Part shown: positions 31,193-51,635 of the stretch, piece after piece
Layout: each line of letters starts with the position of its first letter
Numbering within the stretch: position 1 is the first letter of the stretch
From: Oscillospiraceae bacterium
Lineage (GTDB): Bacteria; Bacillota; Clostridia; Oscillospirales; Oscillospiraceae
Assembly (NCBI GenBank): GCA_017406005.1
Contig: JAFQZI010000093.1
Coordinates: forward strand, 1-64,000
Reading direction: 5' to 3'
DNA length: 64,000 nt
Notes under the pieces: model-generated
The model's database searches: none
The model's input: the letters and a program-made list of their open reading frames with translations, nothing else
What the model was told of the DNA's origin: nothing
Translations under genes and position numbers: made by a program

Positions 31193-34100
31193 TTATGATC
31201 CCGCCTGACGCCAGATAGCGTAGAGGGTAACGGTTTCTCCGTTTGTGGTGGCGAGATCAGTGACCTTTGATCTGTTAAGATAAGTCGGGGTATCGGCGTT
31301 CGGGTCAGTGCTCCACCCGAGGAACACATAACCGGAAAGCCTGTAACTGCAGCTTGTGAGCATATAGGTTCTGCCGAAGAGGCGGTTTGTAAGGTCTCGC
31401 ATGGTTCCCGTCACAGCTCCGCGGCCCTGGGCATTGCTGTCAAAAGAAATATTATATTTTAGCTGAGCCCATTTTGCATATACTGTGACGGCGCCTCCCG
31501 TAAGGCTGATATTGATAACGGTGATCTTTGTTCGGAAAGAGGACTCGCTGTACCATCCCTCAAAGACATAGCCAGATCGGCTTATATCCTGCAGAATAAC
31601 AGTTTCTGTGGAACTGTAAGTTGACGGATTCGGATTTGCATCAGAGGAAGTGACATTCCGATAATTGATCCGGTATGTTACGGGTGCCCATTGTGCATAA
31701 AGAGTTACTACAGCACCGTTCTCCGTGGAAAGGGAAGTGACGCGTGCCCGATTGGCGAAACTGCTGCCGGATCCGTCAGGTGCGGTATTCCATCCGGCAA
31801 AGCCATATCCGCTGCGTTTAAAGGTGTTGTTTTTAAGAGAATAACTCCGTCCGCAGATACATCCGGTTAGAGGATCCATAGTCCCACTCCCGCCATTGGC
31901 ATCAAATGCAACCGTATAGGAGTATGGTGACCATTTGGCGTAGAGCGTCAGGTTGCCGGAGGTGCCGTGTGGGATGGACGTAATTGCACTGGAGTAGCGG
32001 GAATCTGTATACCATCCGCCGAACACATATCCGGCACGGCTGAGCCCGGAGAGCGTTATGGTCGGATCTTCCGCGGAGTATACAGCGGGATTGCTGTTCC
32101 CGTCGGACTCTATGACATTCCTGTATGTAATCCGATATTGTACGGGAGACCATTGTGCATAAAGGGTCAGCATTGCCCCGTCACCGGAAGCAAAGTTTGC
32201 CTGCCGCGCGCGGTTGCTGTATGCGGTGCCGCTGCCGTCAGGCGCAGTATTCCACCCAGTAAAGGTGTAGCCTGATCTTCGGAAAGAATTGGAAGTAAGT
32301 GTAACGGTATTCCCGTACTGGCGATTTTCCAGCGCTCTCATCGTGCCGGAAGTTGCACCGTTGCCGTCAAACACGATGCTGTACTGATGCGCAGCCCAGA
32401 TAGCGTAGAGAGTAACGGTTTTTCCGTTTGTCGCAGTCAGGTTGGAAAAAGATGCGCGATCTTCATAAGCAACCTTTCCGCGTGCAGACAAAGCCCAGCC
32501 GATGAAACTGAAACCTTCTCTCGTGTAGGTGCAGGCAGGAAGCGTGTAGGTCTCGCCATAGTTGCAGATCTTTCCCTGGGAAGGCATTTCTCCAATGCCG
32601 CCGTTTGCATCGAAGGCAAGTATGTAGGCATTTGTTACCCAGACCGCATAAAGCGTTACGGTTCCGCCTGCAGAAGCTGTCAGGTTTATGACATTCTGCC
32701 TGTCCGTATAATCAGCAGAAGAGGCGGAAGGATTGGTAGACCAGCCTGCAAAGGCAGAGCCGTCTTTCCGATAAGAATTTGCAGTGAGTACAGCCTGCTT
32801 GTCGTAAGTTAAAGTCTGGGTTCTCTGACTGCCTGTACCTCCGTTAGGGTCGAAAACAACCGTATAGGTATTGGCTTTCCATTTTGCATATAGCGTCAGG
32901 TCTCCTGAGGTTCCTGAAGTGATGGCTGTGATCGGAGTACCGGCGAGAGAGGACGTTTTGAACCAGCCTTCAAAGGAGTATCCTGTGCGGGAAGGATTTA
33001 GGAGCATAACTTCTGTTCCTGCATTATAGGAAGACGGATTGCCAGCTACATTTGTTCCACCGTTGCATTCATAACTGATCTGATAAGAGAGAGCGTCTCC
33101 GCACCTTGAGCAAGTACCGTTGACATAGTCATGCCCGAGAGCTTTTACTACAAGGGCTTCCGGGGTTACGGAGTTTTTATGTTCTTCCGTGAGGAAGAGC
33201 TCTCCGCACTCATCGCATGTCCAGTAGGCAAGTGTTCCGTCTTTGATGCAGGTTGCCTCAACAGCTTTGTGGAAGGTGAGAGATTTATGCGTCTCATCGG
33301 CCGGGTCAACAGTGCCGTCGGAATAATCCGTATCGGGAACCGGATAAGAGGAGCTGAAGGAAGCACTATTGAATTTATCTCCTTTGACGGAAACGCCATT
33401 TTGCTTATGATTCTTCAGCCACCAGGTGTTTCCTCTCAGGAAATAGAGATAAGAGGAACGCCCGGCATCCCATGTCGCGTCGAGATGGTAATACTTATCT
33501 CCTAAACGGACTATATTCCAGGCATGCAGCATCTGCTGGCTGTCAATGACGCGAGCATTGATACCTGCTTCCAGACATAGCCGATAAAATGCTACCGAGT
33601 AACCCTGGCATACGGCTGTTTTCTGAACGAGTGCAGCATAGCCCGTAAACTTTAGAGTATAGGAACTATCATCGGCATGGACATTGTCGTAGGTAACATG
33701 CGTGCAAAGATAGTCATAGATTGCTTTAATTTTCTGATAGTCTGTTTTTCCGGAAAGGCTGAGCTGATTGAGAACAGAATTTACAGTATTGGTTACCTCA
33801 TCTTCCTGTGCTGCTGTGGTATAGTAAAGCGGAGCATAATTGAAAAGATAGGAATACTGATTCGAGCCGCTCAGCTTTACAGGCCCGGCACCTGTGGCAT
33901 TATATCCGCCGAATTCATACAGTAGATAATCACCTTCCGTCGGGATGCCGGTGTGGGAAACAGCATTGGAATAAATATTAGAGCAGAGGGTATTCCAGTC
34001 AATTTCTTCGGTAGATTGGTAATAAATCTTGATTTCTGTATTACGGGAGATCATTGCGGTTTTCAATGCAGTCCCTGCAGAAGAGAGATCTTTATGGTAG

Positions 34101-35062
34101 GTATCTGCAGACGAAAATGGGGATGCCTTGAAAGCGGTACGGAACTTTATCCCGCCGTCAAAAGATTGGAGCCCAACTTCAGGGTTGGCGGGATTTTCTT
34201 TGTTCTGCAGAAGGTCTCCGCATTCCTCAGGAGTCGTTTCCGCAGCTGGAATATCAGAGACATCGACTACATCAGAGTAAATCGGATTAACCATAGTGAC
34301 GGAGTGAAGCTCCATCCCGGCAAAGGGATCTTCTATCGGCTCCGAGTCTGTTAGAACAAGATCAAATTTCTGCTCGGCCTCATCAGGTTTTACCGTAAAG
34401 AGAATATTGCTAAGCTCTTCGTATGTACCGGTTTCATCAAAAAAGCTGTAAGTGTAATCTCCCGGTGCAAGAAGATAAGTGCCGTAACCAGGAGCCTTCT
34501 CAATCTCATCATAGAAGGGATCAATGGGCTTCCCGTATTCATCTGAAACGGATAGACCGGAAAGGTCTTCCAGTTGATCACAGGCGAATGTGACGATGAC
34601 AATAGAATATTTTGTTGTACCTGGCTGTTCGGGAGTTTGTGTGGCTTCCGGTACCGGAGTTGTAGTTACCTCCGGGTTTGAGATCTGCTCAGGAGTCGGT
34701 TCGGGAGTCGGTGCAAGAGTCGGATCCGGGGTCGGCTCTGGAGTTGGTTCGGGAGTCGGCTCCGGAGTGGGCTCGGGAGTCGGCTCAGAGGTCGGTTCGG
34801 GAGTCGGCTCAGGAGTCGGTTCGGGATCCGGCTCAGGAGTCGGTTCGGGATCCGGTGCAGGAGTCGGTTCGGGATCCGGTGCAGGGGAAGGGGTAACCTC
34901 CGGCTCAGAGGCCAAATCAGAGGCAAAAAGCTGAATATTTCCCTGCTGACCGGGATCGGGGTTTTCCCACCCGTCACTTGTTACAGCAAAAGCAGAAGCC
35001 TGTACCAGCGAGAGGCACATGGCAAAAACCAGTATGAAAGAAAGCAGCTTTCTGTTGGACAT
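31193..35062 (-). CDS. Large secreted protein: Pro-rich stalk, transglutaminase-like domain, eight InlB-type repeats
   Basis: 1289 residues from the ATG at 35062, chosen because AGGAGGG lies 8 nt upstream and a signal peptide follows directly (cleavage near QASAFA, residue 26). Residues about 54-131 are a Pro-Glu-Pro-Thr repeat, a likely wall-spanning stalk. A transglutaminase/protease-like core follows near 485-527 with Cys (AVCQGYSVAFYR), His (LHAWNIV) and Asp (YHLDATWD). Residues about 667-1285 are eight InlB B/Listeria-Bacteroides repeats, each ending in LYAxW. No LPXTG motif or C-terminal anchor is seen, so surface retention is uncertain. Such repeats are usual in adhesins of gut Bacillota. 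Monocistronic. Confidence 0.9.
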   Translation of the reverse strand: MSNRKLLSFILVFAMCLSLVQASAFAVTSDGWENPDPGQQGNIQLFASDLASEPEVTPSPAPDPEPTPAPDPEPTPEPDPEPTPEPTPEPTSEPTPEPTPEPTPEPTPEPTPDPTLAPTPEPTPEQISNPEVTTTPVPEATQTPEQPGTTKYSIVIVTFACDQLEDLSGLSVSDEYGKPIDPFYDEIEKAPGYGTYLLAPGDYTYSFFDETGTYEELSNILFTVKPDEAEQKFDLVLTDSEPIEDPFAGMELHSVTMVNPIYSDVVDVSDIPAAETTPEECGDLLQNKENPANPEVGLQSFDGGIKFRTAFKASPFSSADTYHKDLSSAGTALKTAMISRNTEIKIYYQSTEEIDWNTLCSNIYSNAVSHTGIPTEGDYLLYEFGGYNATGAGPVKLSGSNQYSYLFNYAPLYYTTAAQEDEVTNTVNSVLNQLSLSGKTDYQKIKAIYDYLCTHVTYDNVHADDSSYTLKFTGYAALVQKTAVCQGYSVAFYRLCLEAGINARVIDSQQMLHAWNIVRLGDKYYHLDATWDAGRSSYLYFLRGNTWWLKNHKQNGVSVKGDKFNSASFSSSYPVPDTDYSDGTVDPADETHKSLTFHKAVEATCIKDGTLAYWTCDECGELFLTEEHKNSVTPEALVVKALGHDYVNGTCSRCGDALSYQISYECNGGTNVAGNPSSYNAGTEVMLLNPSRTGYSFEGWFKTSSLAGTPITAITSGTSGDLTLYAKWKANTYTVVFDPNGGTGSQRTQTLTYDKQAVLTANSYRKDGSAFAGWSTNPSASSADYTDRQNVINLTASAGGTVTLYAVWVTNAYILAFDANGGIGEMPSQGKICNYGETYTLPACTYTREGFSFIGWALSARGKVAYEDRASFSNLTATNGKTVTLYAIWAAHQYSIVFDGNGATSGTMRALENRQYGNTVTLTSNSFRRSGYTFTGWNTAPDGSGTAYSNRARQANFASGDGAMLTLYAQWSPVQYRITYRNVIESDGNSNPAVYSAEDPTITLSGLSRAGYVFGGWYTDSRYSSAITSIPHGTSGNLTLYAKWSPYSYTVAFDANGGSGTMDPLTGCICGRSYSLKNNTFKRSGYGFAGWNTAPDGSGSSFANRARVTSLSTENGAVVTLYAQWAPVTYRINYRNVTSSDANPNPSTYSSTETVILQDISRSGYVFEGWYSESSFRTKITVINISLTGGAVTVYAKWAQLKYNISFDSNAQGRGAVTGTMRDLTNRLFGRTYMLTSCSYRLSGYVFLGWSTDPNADTPTYLNRSKVTDLATTNGETVTLYAIWRQAGS

Positions 35063-35320
35063 AAACAGAACCCTCCTGAGGGAAGATAGGTAGATAAACT
35101 GAGCACGTTTAAATATAAACCGATTTTTCAACAAACATACTATACATCAAATGAAATTATTTTGCAATAAAATTTTCTATTTTGAAAAATATTGACTATA
35201 AATTGTAGATATTGCAAAAATGAGAGAGAAAAATCCCCTCCGGGGGGTTCCGAATTTTCATAATTCGTGGTATGATATCATCTATAAAACGATAGATTCA
35301 TTTGGGAAAGGCGGCAGGAT

Positions 35321-35780: not shown

Positions 35781-36596
35781 TCAGGCGTAGCTGTGCACAC
35801 CGGGGAGGAGCGTATTTACACCGATATAGGTAAATATCACACAGATAAAGCCCGCCACAGCAAAAATCGCTGCTGATTTTCCTTGCCAACTGCGGCGTAT
35901 CCGGAGATGCAGATAAACAGCATAGATGATCCATGTTACCAGGCTCCAGGTTTCTTTCGGATCCCAGGACCAATAGCTTCCCCAGGCACGCTCTGCCCAG
36001 ATCGCTCCGGTGATGATTGTGAAAGTGAGGAACAGAAGGCCGAGAGCCACGCTCCTGTAGCTGATGGTATCCAGCTTTTCCCGATTCGGAATATGCTGAT
36101 CCAGAAACCCTTTTTCTTTCATCCTGTCCCGCAGCAGGAAGATGATCGACAATACAAACGAAACTCCGAAGGAGCCGTAGGCAATGATTGCTGTGGATAC
36201 ATGAAATCCCAGCCAGTTGCTGCGGAGGGCGGGCATCAGCTCACGGACGTCTTTGCTTTGCATGGCGGCATATCCGATGATCAGGAAGATTACCGGCGCG
36301 GCAAAGGCCCCAAGCACAGGGAAATGAAAGCGAAGTACAAAGATCAAGCTCACAAGACAGAGCCCCCAGGCAAAGCAGGTGGCAAACTCATACTGGTTCG
36401 TCAGAGGCAGTCTTCCAGCACCGATCCCTCTGCAGATCAGTGCTGCTGTATGCAGCACAAATCCGGCTGCCTGCAGAAGCACAGCAATTCTGGAAAGAGC
36501 ATCACGCTTGACTGCAATGAATACAAAATACAGGATCATTGCAGCAAAGTACAGAAGCATAACAATGGTAAAGAGTGTGTTTTCAGCCTGAAGCAT
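35781..36596 (-). CDS. ccsA: Cytochrome c biogenesis protein CcsA/ResC
   Basis: 271 residues from the ATG at 36596 (AAGGAGA 6 nt upstream; a longer in-frame start would overlap resB with no ribosome site). About eight membrane helices and the haem-handling tryptophan motif WGSYWSWDPKETWSL (WWD domain). With ResB it forms the System II synthase that exports haem and joins it to CxxCH motifs outside the membrane. The gene lies 13 bp behind resB and downstream of the operon whose last gene encodes a pentahaem protein, its obvious substrate. Confidence 0.95.
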   Translation of the reverse strand: MLQAENTLFTIVMLLYFAAMILYFVFIAVKRDALSRIAVLLQAAGFVLHTAALICRGIGAGRLPLTNQYEFATCFAWGLCLVSLIFVLRFHFPVLGAFAAPVIFLIIGYAAMQSKDVRELMPALRSNWLGFHVSTAIIAYGSFGVSFVLSIIFLLRDRMKEKGFLDQHIPNREKLDTISYRSVALGLLFLTFTIITGAIWAERAWGSYWSWDPKETWSLVTWIIYAVYLHLRIRRSWQGKSAAIFAVAGFICVIFTYIGVNTLLPGVHSYA

Positions 36597-36609
36597 TGTT
36601 GTTCTCCTT

Positions 36610-37887
36610 TCAGGGACTGCCGGATCGTACAGCCTCCTCAAATTTTTCCTTAAAGAGCACCCCGCCTTTTGGGCTGCTGCCAAAGACAGTCCAGGTGCCG
36701 GAATCATCCTGCACAGCCCAGACTCTGGTCGGCTGAATATAGAAGGCGAGTATGAGCCCGATCATGGTTACAATTCCCCCGAGAAACGCCAGCTGGGTGA
36801 AGGAATCCTTCTTGGCCTGGATCAGGGTATAACTCTGCGGCTCGGAAAAAACAACCGTATACTCATCGATAGTCAGTTCTTCTTCGCCCATCAGAACATT
36901 CATCCCGAGGATCTGATCCTGATAATAGACCGAATAAAGTGTCGCAGGATTGTTGATTTTCCCGGACAGCGTCTGCGGCCCGCTCCCGGGAACAAGCACA
37001 TAGTCAGGATAGAATGCGTTGAAATAGACAACCAGATCAGGCTTATCGGAGATGCGGAGATATTCACCCGCGCAGAGAACTTCGCTCTGCAGGGGTTCAC
37101 CGTTCTCGGTGACGGTTACAAGCTCTGCCCATCCGGTGGAATTCTGATAAAACTTCCACCCGAAAAGAGCAGCCGGGTAGTTGACGCTAATGGAGGCGTT
37201 CTGCACATCCCCGCTCTTTGTATCGTGCACGGTAATGTCGGCAGTATACTGTTCTACTGTGTCGTCGTCACGCAGTCCGATGCGGAAGTCATCGATGGTC
37301 AAAATAAGACCGGAGTTCCCGACAGGCTTTGTCTGCCCCGCAACGCCGTAGACGCTTTCCTGCTGCTGGGTAAACTGACCCAGGCTGAACCCTGCAATCA
37401 GGAACAGAATCCCCAGGTGGCAGATCCAGGCACCCCACAGGCCGATTGTATTTCTGGAGGAATAAAGCAATTCCCGCCCCTCCCGGTCCGCGGTCTTCAC
37501 CGGATTCATATGGAGGCGGTGAAATACACTGATCGGGTCTTTCACGTTTTCTTCCGAAAACCCGGCAGCGTGTTCACTGCCCGGGGGAGAAGACTGCGCT
37601 TTCATTCTTCTGATCAGCTGCGGAAGGCAAATCACATTGCAAAGCAGCAGATTCAGGCATAAGAAGCCGGTAATCAGCAAAAACCACCAGCTGTGAAATG
37701 CATCGTCCAGATGCAAAGCAAGGATCAGTGCGGCAGTCCTCTCGGAATAGTGCTGGGCATACCAGGCATAGGATTGCCCCTGCGTCACAAAACTTCCAGC
37801 AGAGCAGGCGGCTGCCAGAATAACCAGCAGGAGTATGGCAAAACGCATGGAAGAGAGGAACTTCCAAATTTTCTTGATAGTCAGCAT
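36610..37887 (-). CDS. resB: Cytochrome c biogenesis protein ResB
   Basis: 425 residues. Three N-terminal membrane helices (about 12-32, 60-82, 150-172), a large extracytoplasmic domain and a final helix near 370-390, the usual ResB/Ccs1 layout. Partner of CcsA in System II cytochrome c maturation. The NrfA-type CxxCK haem site of the neighbouring fusion protein might need special handling; no NrfE/F/G genes are present, so this pair presumably deals with all five sites. No strong SD is seen before the ATG. Confidence 0.92.
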   Translation of the reverse strand: MLTIKKIWKFLSSMRFAILLLVILAAACSAGSFVTQGQSYAWYAQHYSERTAALILALHLDDAFHSWWFLLITGFLCLNLLLCNVICLPQLIRRMKAQSSPPGSEHAAGFSEENVKDPISVFHRLHMNPVKTADREGRELLYSSRNTIGLWGAWICHLGILFLIAGFSLGQFTQQQESVYGVAGQTKPVGNSGLILTIDDFRIGLRDDDTVEQYTADITVHDTKSGDVQNASISVNYPAALFGWKFYQNSTGWAELVTVTENGEPLQSEVLCAGEYLRISDKPDLVVYFNAFYPDYVLVPGSGPQTLSGKINNPATLYSVYYQDQILGMNVLMGEEELTIDEYTVVFSEPQSYTLIQAKKDSFTQLAFLGGIVTMIGLILAFYIQPTRVWAVQDDSGTWTVFGSSPKGGVLFKEKFEEAVRSGSP

Positions 37888-38169: not shown

Positions 38170-41091
38170 TTATGTGCCGAGGAGAGCCATTGCCTCGGCT
38201 ATTTTTGCCTCAGAGGTATCCAGGCAGGAGAAAGCAAGCGCGGAATTGTGTGCGCCTTCGGAGTTCTCCACATAGCAGAAATCGAAGAACCATTGTGCTT
38301 CACGGTGCAGCTTGCGCACGGCATCAAGTTCCGCCTCGCTCATTTTGCCGTCTGTGACAGCCTGTGCGAGCGTATCTTTCAGCTCGGAAAGCTTATTGCC
38401 GACTTCTGTTTCCCTGGCTGTGACACGATCCTGCAGCTCCCGCACCATGTTCACAACATCGACATTAGCGTGGCAGCTGGCACAGGATGACAGCAGAGTC
38501 TCATTCTCCAGAGGACTGGAAAGGAAATGGCTGCGGTAAACCGTGCCGTCATCCGCCTGTTCAGTCGCCATGTGGCAGTCGGCACAGTTGAGCACGGCCG
38601 CATGCTTGCCCTGCAGATAGGTTTCAAACTCCGGGTGCTGTGCTTTCAGCATTTTAGTGCCGGTTGCTTCCTGAACCCAATCATAGAAGTCGAAGGAATC
38701 ATAATAGGCAAGGATTGTTTCCGGTTTCATATCTGCCACAGTATGATAGGGCATCATGGTCTCGCTGTCTTCTCTGGTGAAGTAATATTCGATATGGCAC
38801 TGTCCGCAGGACATGGTAGCGGGATCGATTGTGCTGACGGTGTCACCCAGAGCCTTGTTGACGTACGAATGGGTGACTTCCAGTTTTCCGGCTTCCCCGG
38901 CGTTGTTGGCATGGCAGGTGTAGCAGCTGATGTTCTCTACCATCATGCTCTGCACTTCTTCAAACGGCATCGAGTACACGCCGACGCCCTGGTCGTTGAC
39001 CAGCTTGGCAAAATTCGGAGATTTGCAGGTCAGGCAGTTTGCTTTGGGATGCGGGCGCTGTGTTTTTGCCACGTCTTCCAGCGTATACTCATGTCCGCGG
39101 GCACTGCCGTAATCCTTGGCAAATCCGTACCCTTCATAGATGTTGACCAGATACGGATCCTGTTCCAGATAATCCGTAACATAGCTGTTCTTGTCATTGT
39201 CGTGCATGGAAGTGACAATATAGGGATAAGTTTCTGCCCAGTCTGCTGCAGTGATGGTTCCGTCGCTGCTGGTGGCTTCCGGAACCTCGACAGGCTTGAA
39301 ACCGGCAAAGCTTGCAGCGTTCTTTCCTGCGATGCTGCCGAAAATTGTGAAGTCAGCCACAGCGTTGCCGCCCACACGGTTGCCGCCGTGGATGCCGCCC
39401 GTGGTCTCGCCGCATGCAAAGAGGCCCGGAATGACCTTGCCCTCGGTGCTGATGACCTCGGCGCTGGTATCGATCTTGATTCCGCCCATTGTGTGGTGGA
39501 TGCCCGGCGCGATCTTGATCGCATAATACGGGGCTGTGGAGATGTCGATCATGCTGACCTGGCTGCGGCCGAAGTCCTTATCCTCACCGGCTGCAACATA
39601 GGTTTCCCAGTTCTGCATGGTCTCAACAAAGTTCTTGACCGCCTCATCCTCAAGTCCCATAGCCTTGCCCAGTGCTTCATAGGTATCACCGCTCAATGCA
39701 TAGCCGCCGTCGATGAACTTGTGGGTCAGGGCAACCTCGTCGACCAGAGCCTGGTCGAAGATGATGTAGGCATAGGCGCCGGGCTGCTTGAGCTCGGCCT
39801 GGGATACAACGTCACGGCCCGCCATGTCATTAACAAAGCGCTTGCCTTCGTTGTTTACGATGATTGCACCGTGGCTGCGCAGAGACTCGGAAACGAGCAG
39901 ACCGTTGGACTGGATGACGGTCGGGTGAAGCTGGATCTGCTCCATGTCGACAGTGGCAGCGCCAACCGCTTCAGCCATTGCAATGCCGTCTCCGGTCGCG
40001 CCGGAATGGTTGGTGGTGACTGCATCGGCGAGGGTCGGATCATAGCTTGCCATCAGCTCAAAGTTGGAGCCAAAGCCGCCGGTCGCAAGGACGACAGACT
40101 TCGCGTTTACGGTATAGATATGTGCCTTGTCCTCGGCGACGACACCGACAGCCTTTCCGTTATCCATGAGGATCTCGGTGGCGCGGGTGTTGAGCATGAT
40201 TTCAATGCCGAGCTCCTCAGCCTTGGCAGAGAGCCTGTCCACGAGATACTCGCCGACGGGCCGTCCGTCCTCGGGCTTGTGCAGATACTTGTGCTCGGTA
40301 CCGCCGGTGGCTGCGACTTTGGTCAGCGGTGCACCGATGGACTCGAGCCAATCGACAGCTTCCGCGCCTCCTTCACCGAGGGTGCGCACCAGCTCGGGAT
40401 CTGCAAGATCATGGCCGAGTCGGAGGGTGTCCGCAACATAGTTGTCGACAGTGCTGTCGTCGAGGCCGAGTGCTGCCTGCACCTTTGTCCCGGCTGCATT
40501 CATGCCGCCCTCGGCGCGCAGGCTGTTGCCGCCGACGTTGGGCATCTTTTCGAGCACAAGCACTTTCGCGCCGGCCTGGGTGGCACGTACGGCGGAGGTC
40601 AGGCCTGCACCGCCTGCACCCACAATGACGACATCGCAGTCGAGGGTTACGGGTGTCTTCTCGCCTACTTCCTCAGAGGCGAGCTCGACAACGGTAAAGT
40701 TTGCAGGATCGATGCCGGCCTCGGTCAGGGCAGTGAGAACGGCAGTCTTAATGGCGTTGGAAGTCATCGTTGCACCGCTGGTGCCGTCGATCTCGACACT
40801 CTGGGTAGCTATGATTCTCTCAGGCAGATCAGCGATGGCGTTGGTGCCGATGCCCTGCGTCTCATTGTGCTCGGTGACGGTGACGGAGTAAATGGCGTTC
40901 TCGTCTGCTACAACCTCGACGACAACAGGCTCACCGAAGACACCGGGCGCTGAGGCGGTCAGAGTCTCACCCCCCCCGCTGGCTTTCGGGGGATACGTCA
41001 TGTCCTCGCCCAAAATTCCGCTTATAAAAACGACAGCCAGAACAAGAATCACTGCGGCAATAATTACCTTGTGTAATTTCAGTTTTTCCAT
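38170..41091 (-). CDS. Fusion of FMN-binding domain, fumarate-reductase-type flavoprotein and pentahaem NrfA nitrite reductase
   Basis: 973 residues. Order: signal anchor (7-28); FMN_bind domain (about 45-128) with covalent-flavin motif DGTSGATMT (Thr 108); FAD_binding_2 domain (about 150-598) with GAGGAG at 158-163, Arg 405 in SLRSHGAI, HHTMGG at 532-537 and Arg 572 in NRVGGN, matching the substrate-handling residues of soluble fumarate reductases; then NrfA (about 615-973). The NrfA part has CLTCK (686-690, Lys-ligated active haem), CYTCH (723), CGQCH-IEYYF (762), CADCH (836) and CASCH (870), and keeps the catalytic Arg 679, Tyr 769, Gln 818 and His 819. Separate proteins elsewhere, here joined in one chain. 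NrfA reduces nitrite to ammonium; the flavin part should reduce an enoate or similar acceptor. Last gene of the Rnf operon (28-bp gap after rnfB). Confidence 0.93.
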   Translation of the reverse strand: MEKLKLHKVIIAAVILVLAVVFISGILGEDMTYPPKASGGGETLTASAPGVFGEPVVVEVVADENAIYSVTVTEHNETQGIGTNAIADLPERIIATQSVEIDGTSGATMTSNAIKTAVLTALTEAGIDPANFTVVELASEEVGEKTPVTLDCDVVIVGAGGAGLTSAVRATQAGAKVLVLEKMPNVGGNSLRAEGGMNAAGTKVQAALGLDDSTVDNYVADTLRLGHDLADPELVRTLGEGGAEAVDWLESIGAPLTKVAATGGTEHKYLHKPEDGRPVGEYLVDRLSAKAEELGIEIMLNTRATEILMDNGKAVGVVAEDKAHIYTVNAKSVVLATGGFGSNFELMASYDPTLADAVTTNHSGATGDGIAMAEAVGAATVDMEQIQLHPTVIQSNGLLVSESLRSHGAIIVNNEGKRFVNDMAGRDVVSQAELKQPGAYAYIIFDQALVDEVALTHKFIDGGYALSGDTYEALGKAMGLEDEAVKNFVETMQNWETYVAAGEDKDFGRSQVSMIDISTAPYYAIKIAPGIHHTMGGIKIDTSAEVISTEGKVIPGLFACGETTGGIHGGNRVGGNAVADFTIFGSIAGKNAASFAGFKPVEVPEATSSDGTITAADWAETYPYIVTSMHDNDKNSYVTDYLEQDPYLVNIYEGYGFAKDYGSARGHEYTLEDVAKTQRPHPKANCLTCKSPNFAKLVNDQGVGVYSMPFEEVQSMMVENISCYTCHANNAGEAGKLEVTHSYVNKALGDTVSTIDPATMSCGQCHIEYYFTREDSETMMPYHTVADMKPETILAYYDSFDFYDWVQEATGTKMLKAQHPEFETYLQGKHAAVLNCADCHMATEQADDGTVYRSHFLSSPLENETLLSSCASCHANVDVVNMVRELQDRVTARETEVGNKLSELKDTLAQAVTDGKMSEAELDAVRKLHREAQWFFDFCYVENSEGAHNSALAFSCLDTSEAKIAEAMALLGT

Positions 41092-41119: not shown

Positions 41120-41935
41120 TCAGGCGGAGGCTTCCGGCTTACTCATGCCGAGAGGAGGCGTTATAACCTTCGCAGGGCACTTTTCGGCACATTTGCCGCA
41201 CTGTACACAGTTTTCGTAGGTCACACGGGCAAGGTTGTCCGTTACATGGATAGCGTCATGTTCGCATTGCCGCTGGCACATTCCGCATCCGATGCAGCCT
41301 GCAGAGCAGGCTTTCTTCACGAGCGGGCCTTTGTCTCTGTTGGAACACTGGACAAACACATGCTTGCTCTCCGGGACGAGGTCAATCAACCCGCGCGGGC
41401 AGGCTTTTGCGCAGAGGCCGCAGCCGACGCATTTCATGCGGTTCACGACCGCCACGCCGTTGATTACATGGATGGCATCGTGCGGGCACGCGGCAACGCA
41501 GGATCCGAATCCGAGGCATCCGTAGCTGCATTCGGTCACTGGGATCCCGGCGAGCACGGCGCTGCGGCAGTCCTGAATGCCGACGTAGTTGCCCTGGTTG
41601 TGGGTTACGTCACAGCTCCCTTTGCACTGCACAAAAGCGACCTTCCGCTCTACAGCTTCTGCGGTGGTGCCCATAATTGCGGCAACTTTCGCACCGACCG
41701 GAGCCCCGCCGACAGGGCACCCGTTAACCGGCGCCTGGCCGGAGACGATGGCCGCCGCCATAGCGTCACATCCTGCGAATCCGCAGGCACCGCAGTTGTT
41801 GCCGGGGAGGCATTCCCTGACAGCTGTCACACGCTCGTCCACTTCCACGTAGAACTTCTTTCCGGTGTAGACAAGCCCGTATCCGACGATAATACCGACG
41901 ATGGTGATAACAAGAGTCGTAATTAAAATGATCAT
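41120..41935 (-). CDS. rnfB: Electron transport complex subunit RnfB
   Basis: 271 residues. N-terminal membrane helix (1-22), the cluster motif CGACGFAGCDAM (about 48-60), then a polyferredoxin region with CVGCGLCAKACP, CIGCGMCQRQC and CVQCGKCAEKCP. RnfB takes electrons from reduced ferredoxin on the cytoplasmic side. It is followed after 28 bp by the FAD-NrfA fusion gene, an addition not found in ordinary rnf operons. Confidence 0.95.
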   Translation of the reverse strand: MIILITTLVITIVGIIVGYGLVYTGKKFYVEVDERVTAVRECLPGNNCGACGFAGCDAMAAAIVSGQAPVNGCPVGGAPVGAKVAAIMGTTAEAVERKVAFVQCKGSCDVTHNQGNYVGIQDCRSAVLAGIPVTECSYGCLGFGSCVAACPHDAIHVINGVAVVNRMKCVGCGLCAKACPRGLIDLVPESKHVFVQCSNRDKGPLVKKACSAGCIGCGMCQRQCEHDAIHVTDNLARVTYENCVQCGKCAEKCPAKVITPPLGMSKPEASA

Positions 41936-41948
41936 AAAGCCCCTCCTA

Positions 41949-42527
41949 TCAGAAATTCAGACTTGAGAAGCCCATGAATGCGATGGACATCAGTGCCGCG
42001 GAAATCAGCACGATAGGTGCTCCGCGCAGAGGTGCCGGGATGTCTTCCTCATGGATTCTGGAGCGGATGCTTGCCAGCAGGATAATTGCGATGGTGTAGC
42101 CCAAAGCTGTGCCGAACCCGCAGAGGACGCTCTCAATAAAGTTGTATCCGTTCTGCACGTTCGTCAGAGCCACACCGAGAACAGCGCAGTTTGTGGTGAT
42201 CAGCGGGAGGAAAATGCCGAGTGCCGTGTAGATCGCGGGAGACGTCTTTTTCAGGAACATCTCAACAATCTGGACGAGGGCTGCAATGACAAGGATGAAG
42301 ATGATGGTCTTCATAAAGTCCATGCCCAGAGGAGCGAGGATAAAGTCATACAGCAGGTTCGCAACGGCGGAAGCAATCGTGATGACAAAGATAACGGCAA
42401 CGCCCAGGCTGGCGGAGGCTTTGATCTGCTTGGAAACGCCGAGGAAGGAACAGATTCCGAGGAACTGGTTCAGAACAACGTTGCTGATCAGTGCGCTCGT
42501 GATGACAATCAAAAACAGGCTTTTCAC
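41949..42527 (-). CDS. rnfA: Electron transport complex subunit RnfA
   Basis: 192 residues, six membrane helices, starting with VLNQFLGICSFLGVS, which carries the conserved Cys of the intramembrane Fe-S site shared with RnfE. Overlaps rnfE by 4 bp. The highly conserved core subunit of the ion-pumping complex. Confidence 0.96.
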   Translation of the reverse strand: MKSLFLIVITSALISNVVLNQFLGICSFLGVSKQIKASASLGVAVIFVITIASAVANLLYDFILAPLGMDFMKTIIFILVIAALVQIVEMFLKKTSPAIYTALGIFLPLITTNCAVLGVALTNVQNGYNFIESVLCGFGTALGYTIAIILLASIRSRIHEEDIPAPLRGAPIVLISAALMSIAFMGFSSLNF

Positions 42528-43207
42528 TTTTCATCTCCTCCTTCCGCTTTTTCACACCGGGAAGCACAGGTGCTGCAGCATCCGTCGCATCCGCTTTCCA
42601 CAAGCTTCCTCTGCCGCGTCTTGATGCCGATGGCATTGAGGATCATAATGCAGAAGGCAAGCACGAGAAACGCTCCGGGAGGCTGGACGAAGATGCCGAT
42701 GGGCTCATAACCGGCAGGCATCACGTTGGAGCCGAAAAGCGTTCCGTTGCCGATCAGCTCACGCAGAGCGCCGACGATGGTCAGGGCGATCGTGAAGCCG
42801 AGGCCCATTCCGAGGCCGTCCATCGCGGAGACGCCGGGTTCATTCTTGTTGGCGTAGGCTTCCGCGCGACCGAGGATGATGCAGTTGACAACGATCAGCG
42901 GGATATAGATGCCGAGCGCTTCGTAGAGGGATGGCAGATAGGCTTCGATCAGCAGCTCAGTCACCGTGACGAGAGAGGCAACAATAACAATGTAGGCCGG
43001 CAGGCGGACTTCATCGGGTATTGCCTTGCGCAGGATGGAAATGACCACGTTCGAAAGGATCAAAACCGCCGTTGTGGACAAGCCCATCCCGATGCCGTTA
43101 GCGGCGCGGGTGGAAACGGCAAGCGTCGGGCACATGCCGAGCATGAGGATAAAGGTCGGGTTCTCTTTGATAATACCGTTGTACAGGCGTTCAAGATATT
43201 TATTCAT
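42524..43207 (-). CDS. rnfE: Electron transport complex subunit RnfE
   Basis: 227 residues, six membrane helices, with FILMLGMCPTLAVS near the N-terminus (Cys of the intramembrane cluster). The C-terminal tail is unusually Cys-rich (CDGCCSTCASRC, six Cys in the last 25 residues), beyond the usual RnfE end, and could bind a metal or cluster. Two bp from the rnfDG gene. Confidence 0.95.
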   Translation of the reverse strand: MNKYLERLYNGIIKENPTFILMLGMCPTLAVSTRAANGIGMGLSTTAVLILSNVVISILRKAIPDEVRLPAYIVIVASLVTVTELLIEAYLPSLYEALGIYIPLIVVNCIILGRAEAYANKNEPGVSAMDGLGMGLGFTIALTIVGALRELIGNGTLFGSNVMPAGYEPIGIFVQPPGAFLVLAFCIMILNAIGIKTRQRKLVESGCDGCCSTCASRCEKAEGGDEK

Positions 43208-43209
43208 CT

Positions 43210-44793
43210 TTACATCGCTCCCTTCACAACAGAATGATAGAAGTCAAGGGCGGCATTCACAGCATTGACGACCGCGCCGGATGTGGTGGAAGCACCGGAT
43301 ACGGAGTCAATCTCATTGTCGGCCGTAGAGCCTCCGGCTTTGTTGAGCGTAAATTTGGTCACATCTTTGTCGTTGAACTGATCCCTGAAAGCAGGTTCGT
43401 CAACACGCATGCCCATGCCCGGCGTCTCATTGAGCTCCGTGAAGGAAATGCCGTTGACTTTTCCGCTGCTGTCAATACCGACAGACAGTGTCACGTTTCC
43501 GTCAAAACCGTCACCGCTCGTTACGCTGATCGCATGGCCGACGACTGCGCCGCTCTCATCTTTTCCGGTCACAACCTGGTTGATGGTAGCGCGCCCGAAT
43601 TCCGTGCCGTAGACGGCACCGTCAAGATCGGCGATGGCCTTGTCTGCCGCGTCATTGCCTTCAAAAGTAACTGCATCGGGCAGCACCGCCTGGAAGGAGG
43701 CTGCATTGGCAGCAAACTTCTGTGCTTCAATGGTATCCTTCGTCATGGCAAACACGCCGCTGAGCGCTGCGCCTGCGATGAGGGAGATAACCGTCAGCAC
43801 AATGACGGGTTTCGGGAAGAAGTCTTTCGCGGATTTCTTTTCCTGAACTTCTCCGGAGCGTGATGCGATGCCCTTCTTCGTGTAGGCAAACGGCTTCGGA
43901 TAGATGAACATATCAATCAGCGGGACAAACAGGTTTGCAATGATGATGGAATAGCTGAACGAATCCGATGCGCCGCTTTTCACACGGAAGAGCCCGCCGA
44001 GCACACCGATGATAATGCCGTATACCATCTGGCCGAGTTTGCTGACCGGGGAAGTGGCATAATCGGAAGCCATGAAGAAAGCACCCATCACCACACCGCC
44101 GCCGCAGATGTGCGACAGCAGGAATCTCGGGTCAAACCCCTTCCCGCCGAAGAGCCCCATAAAGATCGTAAAGGAGACGAGCACGGAAAAGCAGATCTCA
44201 CCGTGGATAATGTCCATAGCCCACAGAACGAGACCGCCGATCAGCATGCAGAGAGTGGAGCTTCCGATTACGTCGTTCGGAACACCGAGGAACATTTTGG
44301 TCACATTCACGGTCTTGCCCTGCATCAGCATGGCAACCGGTGTCGCGCTGGAAACCCCGTCCACCGCATACGTGGTCATGAGCGTGCCGAAGGAGATCAG
44401 CAAAAAGCATCTCGCCGCGAGCGCGGGGTTGACGAAGTTCTTGCCGAGGCCGCCGAAAGCGCACTTCACAACCAGAATGGCAAACACGGAACCGAGGATC
44501 GGGATGAAAAGGGGAATGCTGGGGGGCAGCGTCAGGGCGAGCATCAGTCCGGTTACCACTGCGCTTCCGTCCAGCCAGGTATCCGGCTTTTCGGCAAAGT
44601 AATCGAAGATGAACTCCGTCAGCACTGCTGTCGCGACGGAACAGAGAACCACATAAAACGCGTGGAGCCCATTCATCGCAATGCCGACAACCGTTGCCGG
44701 GAGGAGGGAGAGAATGACCGTATACATGATGAACTTGGTCGTCCATCTGTCCCTCACATGCGGTACGGGAGAAATATTCAATGCATTATTCAT
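43210..44793 (-). CDS. rnfD: RnfD-RnfG fusion protein
   Basis: 527 residues. Residues 1-320 are RnfD (about nine to ten helices; covalent FMN site DGVSSATP near 150). Residues about 330-527 are RnfG: one anchor helix then an FMN_bind domain with motif DSVSGASTTSG near 500. In most organisms these are two genes; here they are one continuous frame with no stop or internal start. The fusion would fix the two flavins close together on the outer side of the membrane. Overlaps rnfC by 4 bp with a good SD (GGAGGG). Confidence 0.94.
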   Translation of the reverse strand: MNNALNISPVPHVRDRWTTKFIMYTVILSLLPATVVGIAMNGLHAFYVVLCSVATAVLTEFIFDYFAEKPDTWLDGSAVVTGLMLALTLPPSIPLFIPILGSVFAILVVKCAFGGLGKNFVNPALAARCFLLISFGTLMTTYAVDGVSSATPVAMLMQGKTVNVTKMFLGVPNDVIGSSTLCMLIGGLVLWAMDIIHGEICFSVLVSFTIFMGLFGGKGFDPRFLLSHICGGGVVMGAFFMASDYATSPVSKLGQMVYGIIIGVLGGLFRVKSGASDSFSYSIIIANLFVPLIDMFIYPKPFAYTKKGIASRSGEVQEKKSAKDFFPKPVIVLTVISLIAGAALSGVFAMTKDTIEAQKFAANAASFQAVLPDAVTFEGNDAADKAIADLDGAVYGTEFGRATINQVVTGKDESGAVVGHAISVTSGDGFDGNVTLSVGIDSSGKVNGISFTELNETPGMGMRVDEPAFRDQFNDKDVTKFTLNKAGGSTADNEIDSVSGASTTSGAVVNAVNAALDFYHSVVKGAM

Positions 44794-46139
44794 TTGTTCC
44801 CTCCCGCTTCTGCGCGTTTCCGCGCGAGTATTTCAGCTTTTGTGCGCATAAAGGTCTGCGTCAGAGGTCTCTTGGCCGGGCAGATATAGCTACAGCAGCC
44901 GCACTGGATGCATTCCAGCCCGTACAGCTTTTTCTCGTAACGCTCCAGATCCCCGGAGGTCACTGCATCCGCCATCATCTGGGGCAGGAGGCCGACCGGG
45001 CAAACGGTCGTGCATCTTCCGCAGCGCAGGCACGACGTCATAAGCTCCTGGGCTTTCTCGCTGCCGTCTTCCGTCACAAGGGCGACGCCGCTGCTGGTCT
45101 TCTGGATCGGCACATCGAGATTGGGGATGGAAATGCCCATAATCGGGCCACCGACGATGGCTTTTTTCACTTCTGCACCGTCTTTCAGCCCGCCTGCGGC
45201 TTCAATCAGCTCCGCAAAGCTCATCCCGTCACGCACGATGAAGTTCCCCGGCGTCTTGACCGCGTCACCCGTGAGCGTAAAGGTATGGGTGAAGAGCGGT
45301 TCGCGGTAAGCGACAGCGCGGTCAATGGCATAGATTGTGCCGATGCTCTGCACGATGCATCCGACGTCTGCCGGCAGCATGGAAGAAGGATAATTGATTC
45401 CGGCAACGGTTTCAATCAGCATCTTTTCTCCGCCTTGGCCGTATTTTGTTTTTGCCGCGAGGACGGAAATCCTCTCGTTCCCGGCCGAAGCCTGCTGCAT
45501 GGCTGCAATCGCCTCCGGCTTGTTGTCCTCAATCACCACAACGCCCTTCGCATTCGGGAAGAGGCGGAGCATCAGCGAGAAGCCCTCGATAATTGCGTCG
45601 GCGTGGGTACGCATGAGCTGGTCGATTCCGGTGAGGTACGGCTCACACTCGGAGCCGTTTGCAATCACATACCTGATTGCTTCGGGGTTTTTGGGGGAAA
45701 GCTTCACATGAGTGGGAAACCCTGCCCCGCCCAGGCCGATAATCCCGGCATCGCGAATGCGTTGAATGATCTCTTCTCCGGTGATTCCGGAGATATCCTG
45801 CCGTACGCCGATACCCTCGGCGCACGTATACTGCCCGTCATTGTCTATAATGACGCATTCAACCATCTGCCCGTTCTGCACACGGCGCTTTTCCACCGCC
45901 TTGACCTTGCCGGAGCACGAAGAAATGACATGGGCCGAAAACAGCCCGTCCGCTTCGCCGATCCGCTGTCCGACAAGGACCTCATCACCTTTCTTGACAA
46001 GAGGCTTGGCCGGTTTTCCGATGTGCTGCAGAAGGGGAAAAACCATTTCTCCTTTCGCATCCAGGACACGCAGCGGTACATCCCGCGTCAGCTCTTTGTG
46101 GCCGATCGGGTGGACACCGCCGCGAAACGTGTTCTTCAC
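44790..46139 (-). CDS. rnfC: Electron transport complex subunit RnfC
   Basis: 449 residues. I place the start at the GTG at 46139: AAGGAG lies 8 nt upstream, whereas the GTG nine bases earlier overlaps that site. The protein then begins (M)KNTFRGGVHPIGHKELT, the normal RnfC start. NADH/flavin region GLGGAGFPTHVKLSP, SLBB domain, and two 4Fe-4S motifs CLRCGRCTTVCPVG and CIQCGCCSYICPAKRP near the C-terminus. RnfC exchanges electrons with NAD(H). First gene of the operon. Confidence 0.95.
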   Translation of the reverse strand: MKNTFRGGVHPIGHKELTRDVPLRVLDAKGEMVFPLLQHIGKPAKPLVKKGDEVLVGQRIGEADGLFSAHVISSCSGKVKAVEKRRVQNGQMVECVIIDNDGQYTCAEGIGVRQDISGITGEEIIQRIRDAGIIGLGGAGFPTHVKLSPKNPEAIRYVIANGSECEPYLTGIDQLMRTHADAIIEGFSLMLRLFPNAKGVVVIEDNKPEAIAAMQQASAGNERISVLAAKTKYGQGGEKMLIETVAGINYPSSMLPADVGCIVQSIGTIYAIDRAVAYREPLFTHTFTLTGDAVKTPGNFIVRDGMSFAELIEAAGGLKDGAEVKKAIVGGPIMGISIPNLDVPIQKTSSGVALVTEDGSEKAQELMTSCLRCGRCTTVCPVGLLPQMMADAVTSGDLERYEKKLYGLECIQCGCCSYICPAKRPLTQTFMRTKAEILARKRAEAGGNK

Positions 46140-46208
46140 ATACTTCACTCCTTTCGGGGAATTCTAAGAAACTGAGGTCGCGATAAGCATACTACACCAG
46201 TTTTGATT

Positions 46209-47772: not shown

Positions 47773-50154
47773 ATGAGCAAAAATCTTTCCCGCAGAGACT
47801 TTCTGAAAGGCTCTGTAGCAGGCGCGGCGACAGCTGCCCTGGTCGGGCTCGGCATTGCCAACCCGCCGAAACCGAAGGCTCCGGAACCCACCCCTGCTCC
47901 CACGGCGGATCTGAGCCTGCCGGAAATCTATACACCCGGCACCTATTCTGCTTCTGCCAAGGGCATTTTCAGCGATGTCAAAGTCACCATGACGTTTGAC
48001 AGCCGCAGCATTACGGATGTTCAGATTGATGTTTCCGGTGAGACGCCCGATATCGGCGGCAAGATCGGCGATCAGATGGCACAGGCCATCCTGAGCGGGC
48101 AGACGGCGGATGTCGACGGTGTTTCCGGTGCAACCATCACGGCAGATGCCGTCAAGGCTGCAGCGGCTGACTGTATCTCCCAGGCTTCCGGCAAGGAAGT
48201 CGTCCTGGAGGAAAAGAAAGCCGACACGTCCGACTGGCTTGGTGAAGCTCCCGAAATTGCCGAAAGTGACATTACCGAGACGCTGGAGACAGAAGTCCTG
48301 GTCTGCGGCTGCGGCACCGGCGGCTGGATTGCAACGATGACAGCTGCCGAAGAAGGCGCCAAGGTTCTTGTCCTCGAAAAGCGCGAGACGCCTACCGGCA
48401 TCCGTGAAGATATCGGCGGCATTAATTCCAAACTGCAGCTTGAAGCCTTCAAAGAATTCCCCGAGTTTAAAATTGACAAAATCGAAGCCCTGCAGGATAT
48501 CCTTCGTTATGCCAGCGGCTATGTGGACAGCGATCTCATCAAAGTCTGGATGAACAATTCCGGCGAACTGGTTGACTGGCTGACCAACCTGATGGAATCC
48601 ACCGGCAACTGGTATATGAGCCTCGAAGGCGGCATCGGCGATCAGGAATACCCCGAGCGCGATAAAGCCTACGCCACTGGCCACAGCCCGCACAAGACGG
48701 ATTCCGCACCCGCCGATGTGACGACAAGCTCCACCTTCCGTGATTTCTGTGATGCCACCGGCAATGTCGACTGGCGCTTCTCCACAGCCCTTGTCAAGCT
48801 GGAGCAGGACAGCAAAGGGAAAGTCACCGGCGTCATTGCGAAGGATCTGACGGATGAGCATTACGTCCGTGTTAAGGTCAGCAAGGGCGTCATCATGGCA
48901 ACCGGCGGATATGCAACCAACACCGAGATGATGCTCGCCCTCCAGCCCATGACGATGAAGATGAAGGCAAACGTCCCCATCGGCTCCACGGACGACGGCT
49001 CCGGCATCAAGGCGATGCTCTGGGCAGGCGGCGAGATGGATCCCTGCCACGCCTCCATGATGTTCAACCGCTGCAGCGTCCTCCCGACGGAGACGGCCGG
49101 CTACAAGACCAACGGCAAGTGGTACTGGTTCGGCGAGCAGCCGTTCCTGAAGGTCAACCTCAACGGCAAGCGCTTCTGCAACGAATCCGGCCCGTATGAA
49201 TTTATGCTGCACAGCATGTACATGCAGCCCTTCCACACCTACTGCGACATCTTCGATGCCAACAATAAGAAGTACTGCGAGCAGTTTGACGAAGTTGGCT
49301 GCTGCCGCCTCTTCCCGTTTGACAACGGCGCGGCATCGAACATGGGCTATGACTATGTCTGGGGCCAGATGACGGAAGGGGAGAATTCCCACCTGGCACT
49401 TGGCTATCTGCAGAAGGCGGATACCCTCGAAGAGCTGGCGGAAAAGCTGAACATCCCCGTGGACAACTTTGTCGAATCCGTCAAGCACTACAACGAGCTC
49501 TGCTACAAGGGCATTGATGAAGATTACGGTAAGAGCCCCCACCGCATGACGCCTGTGGATACGCCTCCTTATTACGGCATCCGCACCTGTGCCTGGCACC
49601 TCACCACGATGGACGGCTGCCGCATCAATACCAACATGCAGGTCATCCGCGAAGACGGCACTCCCATCGAAGGCCTCTGGGCAACGGGTGACTGCACCGG
49701 TGGCTTCTTTGCCAACAACTACCCCAACCTCTTCACCGGCCTCGCCTGCGGCAGAACCATGACGTTCGGCCGCCGTGCCGCAAAGATCGTAGTCAACGGC
49801 AACGCAGACACTCCCGTGAAAGCTGCTGAAGAAGAACCCGCAGCACCGGCCGAAGAGCCTGCGGCAGAAGCTGCAGCCGAAACAGCCGGCGGATTTGTCG
49901 ACGGCGAATATGAAGGCGTCGGCGGCGGCGGAATGGGCGGAGACGTAAAAGTCAAAGTCACCATCGAAGGCGGCAAAATCACAGCCATCACCTATGAAGA
50001 CAATGAAACACCTGCCATCGGCGGCATCGCCCTTCCGGATCTTGTGGATCAGGCCATCGCCAATGACGGCGCTGTAGACAGTGTCAGCGGCGCAACGATG
50101 ACGAGCAGTGCCTTCGCCGCGGCAGTATCCGATGCCCTGAGCAAGGCAATGTAA
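47773..50154 (+). CDS. Tat-exported FAD/FMN reductase with FMN-binding domains at both ends
   Basis: 793 residues. The Tat signal has SRRDFLK (6-12) and a hydrophobic stretch ending near residue 30, without a lipobox. First FMN_bind domain (about 52-138, DGVSGATIT, Thr 121), FAD_binding_2 domain (about 172-690, GCGTGG at 179-184, GHGG-like late block replaced by WATGDCTGGFFANNYPN), an Ala/Glu/Pro linker, and a second FMN_bind domain (about 708-793, DSVSGATMT, Thr 775). The usual fumarate reductase HHTMGG is replaced by HLTTMDGC, so the substrate is probably not fumarate. Electrons would pass from covalent FMN to FAD to an outside acceptor. The tat genes are 0.7 kb downstream. Confidence 0.88.
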   Translation: MSKNLSRRDFLKGSVAGAATAALVGLGIANPPKPKAPEPTPAPTADLSLPEIYTPGTYSASAKGIFSDVKVTMTFDSRSITDVQIDVSGETPDIGGKIGDQMAQAILSGQTADVDGVSGATITADAVKAAAADCISQASGKEVVLEEKKADTSDWLGEAPEIAESDITETLETEVLVCGCGTGGWIATMTAAEEGAKVLVLEKRETPTGIREDIGGINSKLQLEAFKEFPEFKIDKIEALQDILRYASGYVDSDLIKVWMNNSGELVDWLTNLMESTGNWYMSLEGGIGDQEYPERDKAYATGHSPHKTDSAPADVTTSSTFRDFCDATGNVDWRFSTALVKLEQDSKGKVTGVIAKDLTDEHYVRVKVSKGVIMATGGYATNTEMMLALQPMTMKMKANVPIGSTDDGSGIKAMLWAGGEMDPCHASMMFNRCSVLPTETAGYKTNGKWYWFGEQPFLKVNLNGKRFCNESGPYEFMLHSMYMQPFHTYCDIFDANNKKYCEQFDEVGCCRLFPFDNGAASNMGYDYVWGQMTEGENSHLALGYLQKADTLEELAEKLNIPVDNFVESVKHYNELCYKGIDEDYGKSPHRMTPVDTPPYYGIRTCAWHLTTMDGCRINTNMQVIREDGTPIEGLWATGDCTGGFFANNYPNLFTGLACGRTMTFGRRAAKIVVNGNADTPVKAAEEEPAAPAEEPAAEAAAETAGGFVDGEYEGVGGGGMGGDVKVKVTIEGGKITAITYEDNETPAIGGIALPDLVDQAIANDGAVDSVSGATMTSSAFAAAVSDALSKAM

Positions 50155-51420: not shown

Positions 51421-51635
51421 GGATTGGTGTTCAACAGCTTTTGATTGTTCTTGTCATTGTCATTATTATCTTTGGGCCCACCCAGATCCCGAAGCTTACC
51501 AAAATGCTCGGGAAGAGCGTAAAGGGCTTCAAAGAAGGCATCGAAGAGGCTGAAGAAGAAGTCGAAGAGAAGCCTGTCAAGAAAGTAAAGAAAGCTGCCG
51601 TAAAGACGGAATCCGACGAAGAGGATGAAGAATAA
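51417..51635 (+). CDS. tatA: Twin-arginine translocase subunit TatA
   Basis: 72 residues. Short helix (6-20), hinge FGPTQIP, amphipathic helix KLTKMLGKSVKGFKEG, acidic tail. Forms the variable-size pore that passes folded proteins. Start ATG overlaps the TatB-like stop (ATGA); its end overlaps tatC by 11 bp. Confidence 0.93.
   Translation: MRIGVQQLLIVLVIVIIIFGPTQIPKLTKMLGKSVKGFKEGIEEAEEEVEEKPVKKVKKAAVKTESDEEDEE

Follow-up and report, generated by a model that had tools for sequence, protein, structure and literature searches.

An in-frame FMN-FAD reductase module in the pentahaem nitrite reductase NrfA of an Rnf-linked operon from an Oscillospiraceae bacterium

Introduction

Nitrite reductases of the NrfA family (PF02335; solved structures 3ubr and 1gu6) have a catalytic haem at a CxxCK motif and four further haems at CxxCH motifs. 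Fumarate-reductase-like enzymes, which include the Klebsiella and Listeria fumarate reductases, Shewanella UrdA, and flavocytochrome c3 (1qo8 and 1p2h), have in common a flavin adenine dinucleotide (FAD) domain, FAD_binding_2. We analyzed 64,000 nucleotides (referred to as the window) of contig JAFQZI010000093.1 from an Oscillospiraceae bacterium (assembly GCA_017406005.1). One gene in the window, on the minus strand at positions 38170 to 41091, encodes a chain with the features of both enzyme types: a flavin mononucleotide (FMN) domain, FMN_bind, is followed by the whole length of FAD_binding_2 and then by an NrfA domain with the same five haem motifs. This chain is referred to below as the fusion.

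The gene lies in an operon for an Rnf complex. According to PMC12174285, RnfG has a covalent FMN on the outer side and is proposed to shuttle from RnfA-E to RnfD and back, and onward transfer of electrons is expected of the additional multihaem cytochrome of methanogen Rnf. In PMC8238504, FMN domains are regarded as probable links between membrane donors and extracytosolic fumarate-reductase-like enzymes, the term multi-functional reductase platform is applied to chains with several of these domains, and the swapping of cytochromes and FMN domains is described. The multi-flavinylated, multihaem RnfG of Christensenellales (PMC8238504) and the multihaem cytochrome of Methanosarcina (PMC12174285) tie Rnf to extracytosolic haem proteins, as does the operon described here. 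Those haem proteins have been proposed as carriers, whereas the fusion holds the active sites of terminal reductases.

Results and Discussion

Domains and catalytic residues of the fusion

The 973-residue open frame has zero internal stops. An earlier sequence-only reading of this DNA had described a one-chain protein of FMN_bind, FAD_binding_2, and a five-haem NrfA, and had noted that a stop or frameshift near residue 600 would split it into two genes; the assembled frame contains neither. A domain search recovered all three domains above the curated Pfam cut-offs: FMN_bind (protein-level expect value [E] 1.5e-12), FAD_binding_2 (PF00890; E 1.5e-87, model positions 1 to 414 of 414), and Cytochrom_C552 (PF02335; E 9.1e-78, model positions 5 to 379 of 438). 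Residue ranges are given in Table 1.

The flavin module is of the fumarate reductase type, as had been claimed. In addition to the full FAD_binding_2 model, the complete TIGR01813 model (flavo_cyto_c, NCBIfam; positions 1 to 444 of 444) matched above its cut-off, and among solved structures residues 151 to 596 matched Shewanella flavocytochrome c3 and residues 152 to 594 matched urocanate reductase. The catalytic set of flavocytochrome c3, which we take to be H365, T377, E378, R381, R402, H504, and R544, maps in that order to the seven residues listed in Table 1, and six of the seven are kept. The fusion also shares the covalent-FMN motif of fumarate-reductase-like enzymes. Its sequence DGTSGAT fits the motif for flavinylation by ApbE, D-x-x-[ST]-G-A-[ST] (PMC12052999), which makes T108 the predicted attachment residue. 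There are three ApbE matches in the genome.

The first haem motif of the NrfA half is CLTCK (CxxCK) at residue 686, and CxxCH motifs follow at 723, 762, 836, and 870. The nitrite-site residues R679, K690, E768, Y769, K816, Q818, and H819 are kept and align with those of E. coli and related NrfA. By roles and numbering that we assume, these comprise the catalytic Arg, Lys, Tyr, and His and the calcium-site Glu, Lys, and Gln. Motif checks and alignments thus bore out the sequence-only reading, which had named Arg 679, Lys 690, Tyr 769, Gln 818, and His 819, and its assignment of this half to NrfA also agrees with the nesting of the domain among NrfA genes in the tree described below. Its description of the NrfA as complete over the whole length held for the residues and haems but was slightly too strong for the extent of the match, because the match to the family model ends at position 379 of 438 and the match to 1gu6 ends at residue 388 of 452 of that structure. 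All NrfA matches among solved structures were confined to residues 606 to 971. Free-standing NrfA of related bacteria align up to the last residue of the fusion, and thus its C-terminus is the normal end for this NrfA clade.

The fusion differs from described NrfA in its shorter loops and C-terminus, its membrane anchor, the FMN-FAD module in front, the Rnf operon, and the absence of an NrfH match: no member of the NrfH family (PF03264) was found in the host genome (assembly 92.9% complete). The electron donor of E. coli-type NrfA is something other than NrfH, and therefore a missing NrfH is no bar to membership in the NrfA family.

Conceivably, the chief role of the haem part is to supply the FAD site with electrons, like the tetrahaem domain of Shewanella flavocytochrome c3, and nitrite reduction is secondary. 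Flavocytochrome c fumarate reductases do join haem and FAD parts, and the exchange of cytochromes and FMN domains cited above is compatible with such a role. The haem part of the Shewanella protein is a small N-terminal tetrahaem carrier, in contrast to the C-terminal pentahaem enzyme of the fusion. However, retention of the Lys-ligated haem motif and of the nitrite-site residues, the position nested among NrfA, and a ratio of nonsynonymous to synonymous substitution rates (dN/dS) of 0.07 to 0.09 in the NrfA half (two comparisons, with loci L018 and L019) make this explanation very improbable. The corresponding dN/dS of the FAD half was 0.12 to 0.19 against three relatives; both sets of values mostly record the history before the fusion.

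An Rnf operon with a proposed terminal reductase behind rnfB

The fusion gene occupies the place of nrfA in a run of genes on one strand, with rnfC-rnfDG-rnfE-rnfA-rnfB upstream and resB-ccsA downstream, and it accounts for the one NrfA match in the whole host genome. The sequence-only reading missed the Rnf genes, resB-ccsA, and the membership of the NrfA half in an Rnf-linked clade. A scan of GTDB contigs gave 188 candidate stretches with 176 relatives, and the best 80 were kept as 79 loci (L002 to L080). Flavin and haem parts shared a frame in none of these 79 loci (among the best 80 of 176 relatives). NrfA with 69 to 85% identity to that of the fusion was present in 43 of the 79, some of which end at contig edges. 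In these 43 loci rnfB was in view in 40 and within 120 nt in 33, resB was found in 41 and ccsA in 39, and no NrfA carried a flavin domain (0/43). The rnfD and rnfG genes were fused in all 37 loci in which rnfD was in view. Thus, the nearest relatives have a free-standing NrfA in a recurrent operon, rnfC-rnfDG-rnfE-rnfA-rnfB-nrfA-resB-ccsA. The loci are related to one another, and therefore the locus counts are not independent. As a control, 20 Rnf loci of other Clostridia were read (taken from 30 RnfB loci; 192 genomes with a match): rnfD and rnfG were fused in only 2 of them, and none had an NrfA or FMN-FAD gene behind rnfB within the stretch read.

In locus L074 (3891 to 10800) the gene that comes 26 nt after rnfC-rnfDG-E-A-B encodes an FMN-FAD reductase in the place of NrfA, which shows that this type of module occurs in the slot behind rnfB. 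In L035 (8758 to 12183) a gene for a distant FMN/FAD reductase, with a start that by eye resembles a twin-arginine signal, follows rnfB and precedes a separate nrfA. These two loci, together with the literature on RnfG, FMN domains, and reductase platforms, suggest that the outer reductase of Rnf sits after rnfB and that the fusion combines both kinds.

Other unusual frames were seen among these relatives. L060 (8827 to 11277) has an 817-residue frame behind rnfB with tandem NrfA domains, eight CxxCH motifs, and two CxxCK motifs. In L065 (8029 to 10149) RnfB and NrfA share a 707-residue open frame uninterrupted by stops, which could be a genuine fusion or a sequence error; a long frame in L037 was rejected as an RnfB-NrfA fusion because rnfB is read in another frame there. 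Rnf-linked NrfA also occurred on contigs labelled Spirochaetota (L061, L073, L077, and L079), which suggests transfer between phyla or mis-binning.

A separate clade of NrfA with FMN_bind

A genus search listed 68 other NrfA-type places, of which 61 became loci L132 to L192 and five were not fetched; G020 and G024 (L129 and L130) have free NrfA. NrfA was recognized in these loci by similarity (a haem filter caught only 39 of the 61), and FMN_bind was scored with a domain model built in this analysis. FMN_bind preceded NrfA in 38 of the 61 loci (for example, L132, 4673 to 6370; also L138, L140, and others), and 37 of these had a flavinylation-like motif. It was missing in the other 23, one of which (L192) is cut by a contig end. 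Like the fusion, these proteins place a covalent-FMN domain before NrfA, and resB lies within 1.5 kb in 36 of the 38 and ccsA in 31. Unlike the fusion, they have no FAD module, their NrfA is only 42 to 48% identical to that of the fusion, and they belong to a separate clade. A separate FMN-FAD gene was within 1.5 kb in 5 of the 38 and rnfB in none, whereas rnfB was within that distance in 2 of the 23 loci without FMN_bind (L133, in the Rnf clade, and L148, in the other clade).

A midpoint-rooted tree was made of 102 rows, the fusion plus 101 NrfA frames (of 104 in all, three were left out for being short or identical). The fusion paired with L018 (support 100/94) inside an Rnf clade of 44 rows, and all 36 FMN-NrfA rows fell within the other 58, apart from the Rnf clade. 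The simplest reading is that NrfA acquired a flavin domain on two or more occasions, and the FMN-NrfA family and the fusion suggest two separate ways of doing so. L148 (6133 to 13895) has a complete rnf set, with rnfD and rnfG separate, and about 1.4 kb further on an NrfA of the other clade, without FMN_bind; this is a second, looser association of rnf and nrfA.

The FMN-NrfA family bears on whether the FMN and FAD of the fusion only carry Rnf electrons to the nitrite site, replacing NrfH or NrfB, with the FAD having no substrate of its own. Because FMN_bind by itself is joined to NrfA in the 38 genus loci, flavin feeding seems to be used, and the absence of an NrfH-family match from the host genome makes feeding by flavin in place of NrfH plausible. 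However, the same 38 loci indicate that an FMN domain would suffice for a relay, whereas the fusion retains a whole FAD enzyme with its catalytic His, Glu, and Arg set, and the Rnf-linked NrfA of the 43 loci do without any flavin domain. A simple relay is therefore unlikely, and we favor a reductase with two acceptors.

Insertion into the nrfA linker

Residues 1 to 33 of the fusion are the anchor of NrfA itself (MEKLKLHKVII... versus MEKLKLYKVIV... in L018). DNA alignment with the free nrfA of L018 and L019 begins just before the start codon, continues through the anchor and half of the linker, and then breaks; beyond the module, near codon 600, it picks up again in frame, with about ten linker codons replaced. 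L004 has two modules to which the flavin module is 74 to 76% identical; the FAD part of the fusion is 81% identical to L014 and up to 83% identical to flavin reductases that are not joined to NrfA. These alignments indicate that an Rnf-linked nrfA received an FMN-FAD module within its linker, with the reading frame kept.

The alternative that assembly joined the flavin reductase gene of another organism into nrfA must be considered because the fusion comes from a single genome in 174 contigs with a contamination estimate of 6.6%. There is a G8 run at the left junction, and the G+C content at third codon positions (GC3) of the module (0.68 to 0.73) exceeds that of the flanking nrfA parts (anchor, 0.53; NrfA part, 0.60 to 0.65). 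However, an artefact would require two joins that are both in frame and that exit nrfA and return to it no more than about ten codons away. No 21-mer from either junction stretch is repeated within the window, and the genome contains no other close relative of the module: the next-best matches by E value were 30 to 31% identical, and short matches did not exceed 45%. The GC3 of the module equals that of the neighboring rnf genes (0.69 to 0.72); the values for resB and ccsA are 0.63 and 0.56. We consider an artefact highly improbable and the triple fusion very probably genuine. The 9-nt word GTCGAGGTT is common to both junction regions (window positions of about 40912 to 40920 and 39283 to 39291), with the left copy off the exact junction; this sharing may be chance.

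Rarity of the triple fusion

The whole protein was searched against 101 genomes of the genus (98 with a match) and a 183-residue junction peptide against 102 (85 with a match). Among the matches listed, only the host genome (G000) gave full coverage on both sides of the junction, and no other NrfA-type place shared a frame with an FAD match. Candidates from the genus were rejected as second fusions, among them G062, G033, and G052, whose junction-peptide matches extended across the junction. G062 (query 2 to 153) is a multi-FMN/FAD protein without a haem motif, G033 (query 1 to 127) has two FMN-FAD modules and zero haem motifs, and G052 (query 27 to 183) and the 750-residue frame of G050 are FMN_bind-NrfA without FAD.

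Samples of the family, order, and phylum, which overlap and all include G000, were searched with the NrfA model for open frames of more than 640 residues. NrfA was present in 30 of 400 genomes of the family and 2 of 394 of the order, and in both samples the only such frame was that of G000. The phylum sample (71 of 398 with NrfA) added only a 787-residue frame in G1305, which was rejected as a fusion because it is an ordinary 443-residue NrfA plus a separate open reading frame, ResB by eye. The triple fusion is thus unique to the host genome within the genus genomes and the samples searched.

The sequence-only reading had supposed that a chain of covalent FMN, FAD, and NrfA was undescribed. 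The triple chain was unique in our searches, but the joining of FMN_bind to NrfA is common. No mention of FMN-NrfA, FMN-FAD-NrfA, or an rnf-nrfA operon was found in the literature searched, outside which lay supplements and most subscription papers. FMN-NrfA chains are unmentioned in the available parts of PMC8238504, PMC8840924, PMC11334425, PMC12998184, PMC12578642, PMC6776011, PMC12174285, and PMC12052999, and a term search of PMC10716430 returned nothing. The only nitrite reductase in the available part of PMC8238504 is NirS, in NapH-like clusters. The components and the logic are known; the combination was not found in print.

Possible electron flow

We propose that the fusion may be a dual-acceptor terminal reductase of an Rnf-driven extracytosolic chain that operates without NrfH, a proposal that we regard as evenly poised between right and wrong. 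Rnf would accept electrons from reduced nicotinamide adenine dinucleotide (NADH) or ferredoxin through RnfC/RnfB and pass them to the outward-facing covalent FMN of the fused RnfDG. From there electrons could move to the covalent FMN of the fusion (T108), to FAD, and to fumarate or a similar enoate, and either RnfDG or the FMN of the fusion itself could supply the NrfA haems for the reduction of nitrite to ammonium. ResB-CcsA would attach the haems and ApbE the FMN. The insertion would thus have given one membrane-anchored protein with two catalytic sites. The electron route, both substrates, the activity of both sites, and the transfer from FMN to haem are predictions from sequence.

It is possible, as a special case of the dual-acceptor reading, that the two halves are independent enzymes that share an anchor, each reduced by Rnf, with no exchange of electrons between them. 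One chain in the genus has two FMN-FAD modules (L128), and the multi-domain proteins termed reductase platforms are consistent with such an arrangement, which we nevertheless judge quite unlikely.

Several observations weigh against the dual-acceptor proposal. One residue of the fumarate site has changed, from T377 of flavocytochrome c3 to S401, although conservatively. The host genome has no molybdopterin oxidoreductase match and hence no sign of a nitrate reductase of this type, so that nitrite would need an outside source. The triple fusion occurs in one genome only, a draft with the contig number and estimated contamination given above, and codon composition is neutral, neither backing nor ruling against a foreign source for the module. 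Donation of electrons by Rnf to NrfA would be read from gene order, which has exceptions: L078 has the same NrfA type with 8.8 kb upstream free of rnf, and L055 and L066 lack resB and ccsA though the sequence continues.

More tentatively, and with somewhat less confidence than doubt, gut Clostridia (and some Spirochaetota-labelled contigs) may have made Rnf respiratory by fusing RnfD to RnfG and placing a membrane-anchored terminal reductase after rnfB, either NrfA, an FMN-FAD enzyme, or both. The fusion would then be the two-acceptor extreme, without quinone, NrfH, or NrfB, and a second independent lineage would wire covalent FMN into NrfA. If so, anaerobes without NrfH would be able to reduce nitrite with electrons from NADH or ferredoxin in a way that is tied to an ion-pumping complex. 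Ammonification of nitrate and nitrite and fumarate reduction vie with methanogenesis for reductant in ruminants (PMC4777734 and PMC6776011). Direct feeding of NrfA from FMN would become testable on one polypeptide. The Rnf-NrfA operon with its fused RnfDG and the frequent FMN-NrfA family may outweigh the single fusion chain in importance.

Host genome and other features of the window

The host is a bacterium related to ruminant-gut Oscillospiraceae. Its assembly comprises 3.52 Mb, and the contig with the fusion is 116,883 bases long. In Table 1, rnfA and rnfE are distinguished by gene order.

Table 1. Features of the fusion gene and its operon in the window
Feature	Positions	Strand	Basis
rnfC	44790..46148	-	Domain searches
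rnfD and rnfG as a single fused frame; RnfG part contains FMN_bind	43210..44793	-	Domain searches
rnfE (Rnf-Nqr family)	42524..43207	-	Domain match; A versus E by gene order
rnfA (Rnf-Nqr family)	41949..42527	-	Domain match; A versus E by gene order
rnfB	41120..41935	-	Domain searches
Fusion gene: membrane anchor, FMN_bind, FAD_binding_2, pentahaem NrfA; 973 residues	38170..41091	-	Open reading frame and Pfam
nrfA-derived 5' end: start, N-terminal membrane anchor, first half of linker (residues ~1-44)	40960..41091	-	Alignment to free nrfA of L018/L019, protein and DNA
FMN_bind (residues 52-122), flavinylation motif DGTSGAT at 102-108	40726..40938	-	Pfam and motif
FAD_binding_2, flavocytochrome c/fumarate reductase type (residues 153-578); H389, S401, E402, R405, R426, H532, R572	39358..40635	-	Pfam and alignment
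NrfA pentahaem nitrite reductase domain (residues 618-970)	38182..39240	-	Pfam, alignment, and motifs
resB, system II cytochrome c biogenesis	36610..37887	-	Pfam
ccsA/ccsB, system II cytochrome c biogenesis (haem attachment)	35781..36707	-	Domain searches

The single UbiA (PF01040) match in the genome, L246, is on a 10-kb contig and is uninformative on quinones. We take it to be an archaeal-type lipid prenyltransferase and possible contamination; its archaeal appearance fits the contamination estimate. Beyond rnfC, the window encodes a second FMN/FAD reductase-like protein with a twin-arginine signal and two FMN_bind stretches (47773 to 50154, plus strand), past which lies tatC (51625 to 52416, plus strand). 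Two large repeat-rich, probable surface proteins are encoded on the minus strand, one with InlB-like repeats recognized by eye (31193 to 35134) and one with leucine-rich repeats found by Pfam (59065 to 61431).

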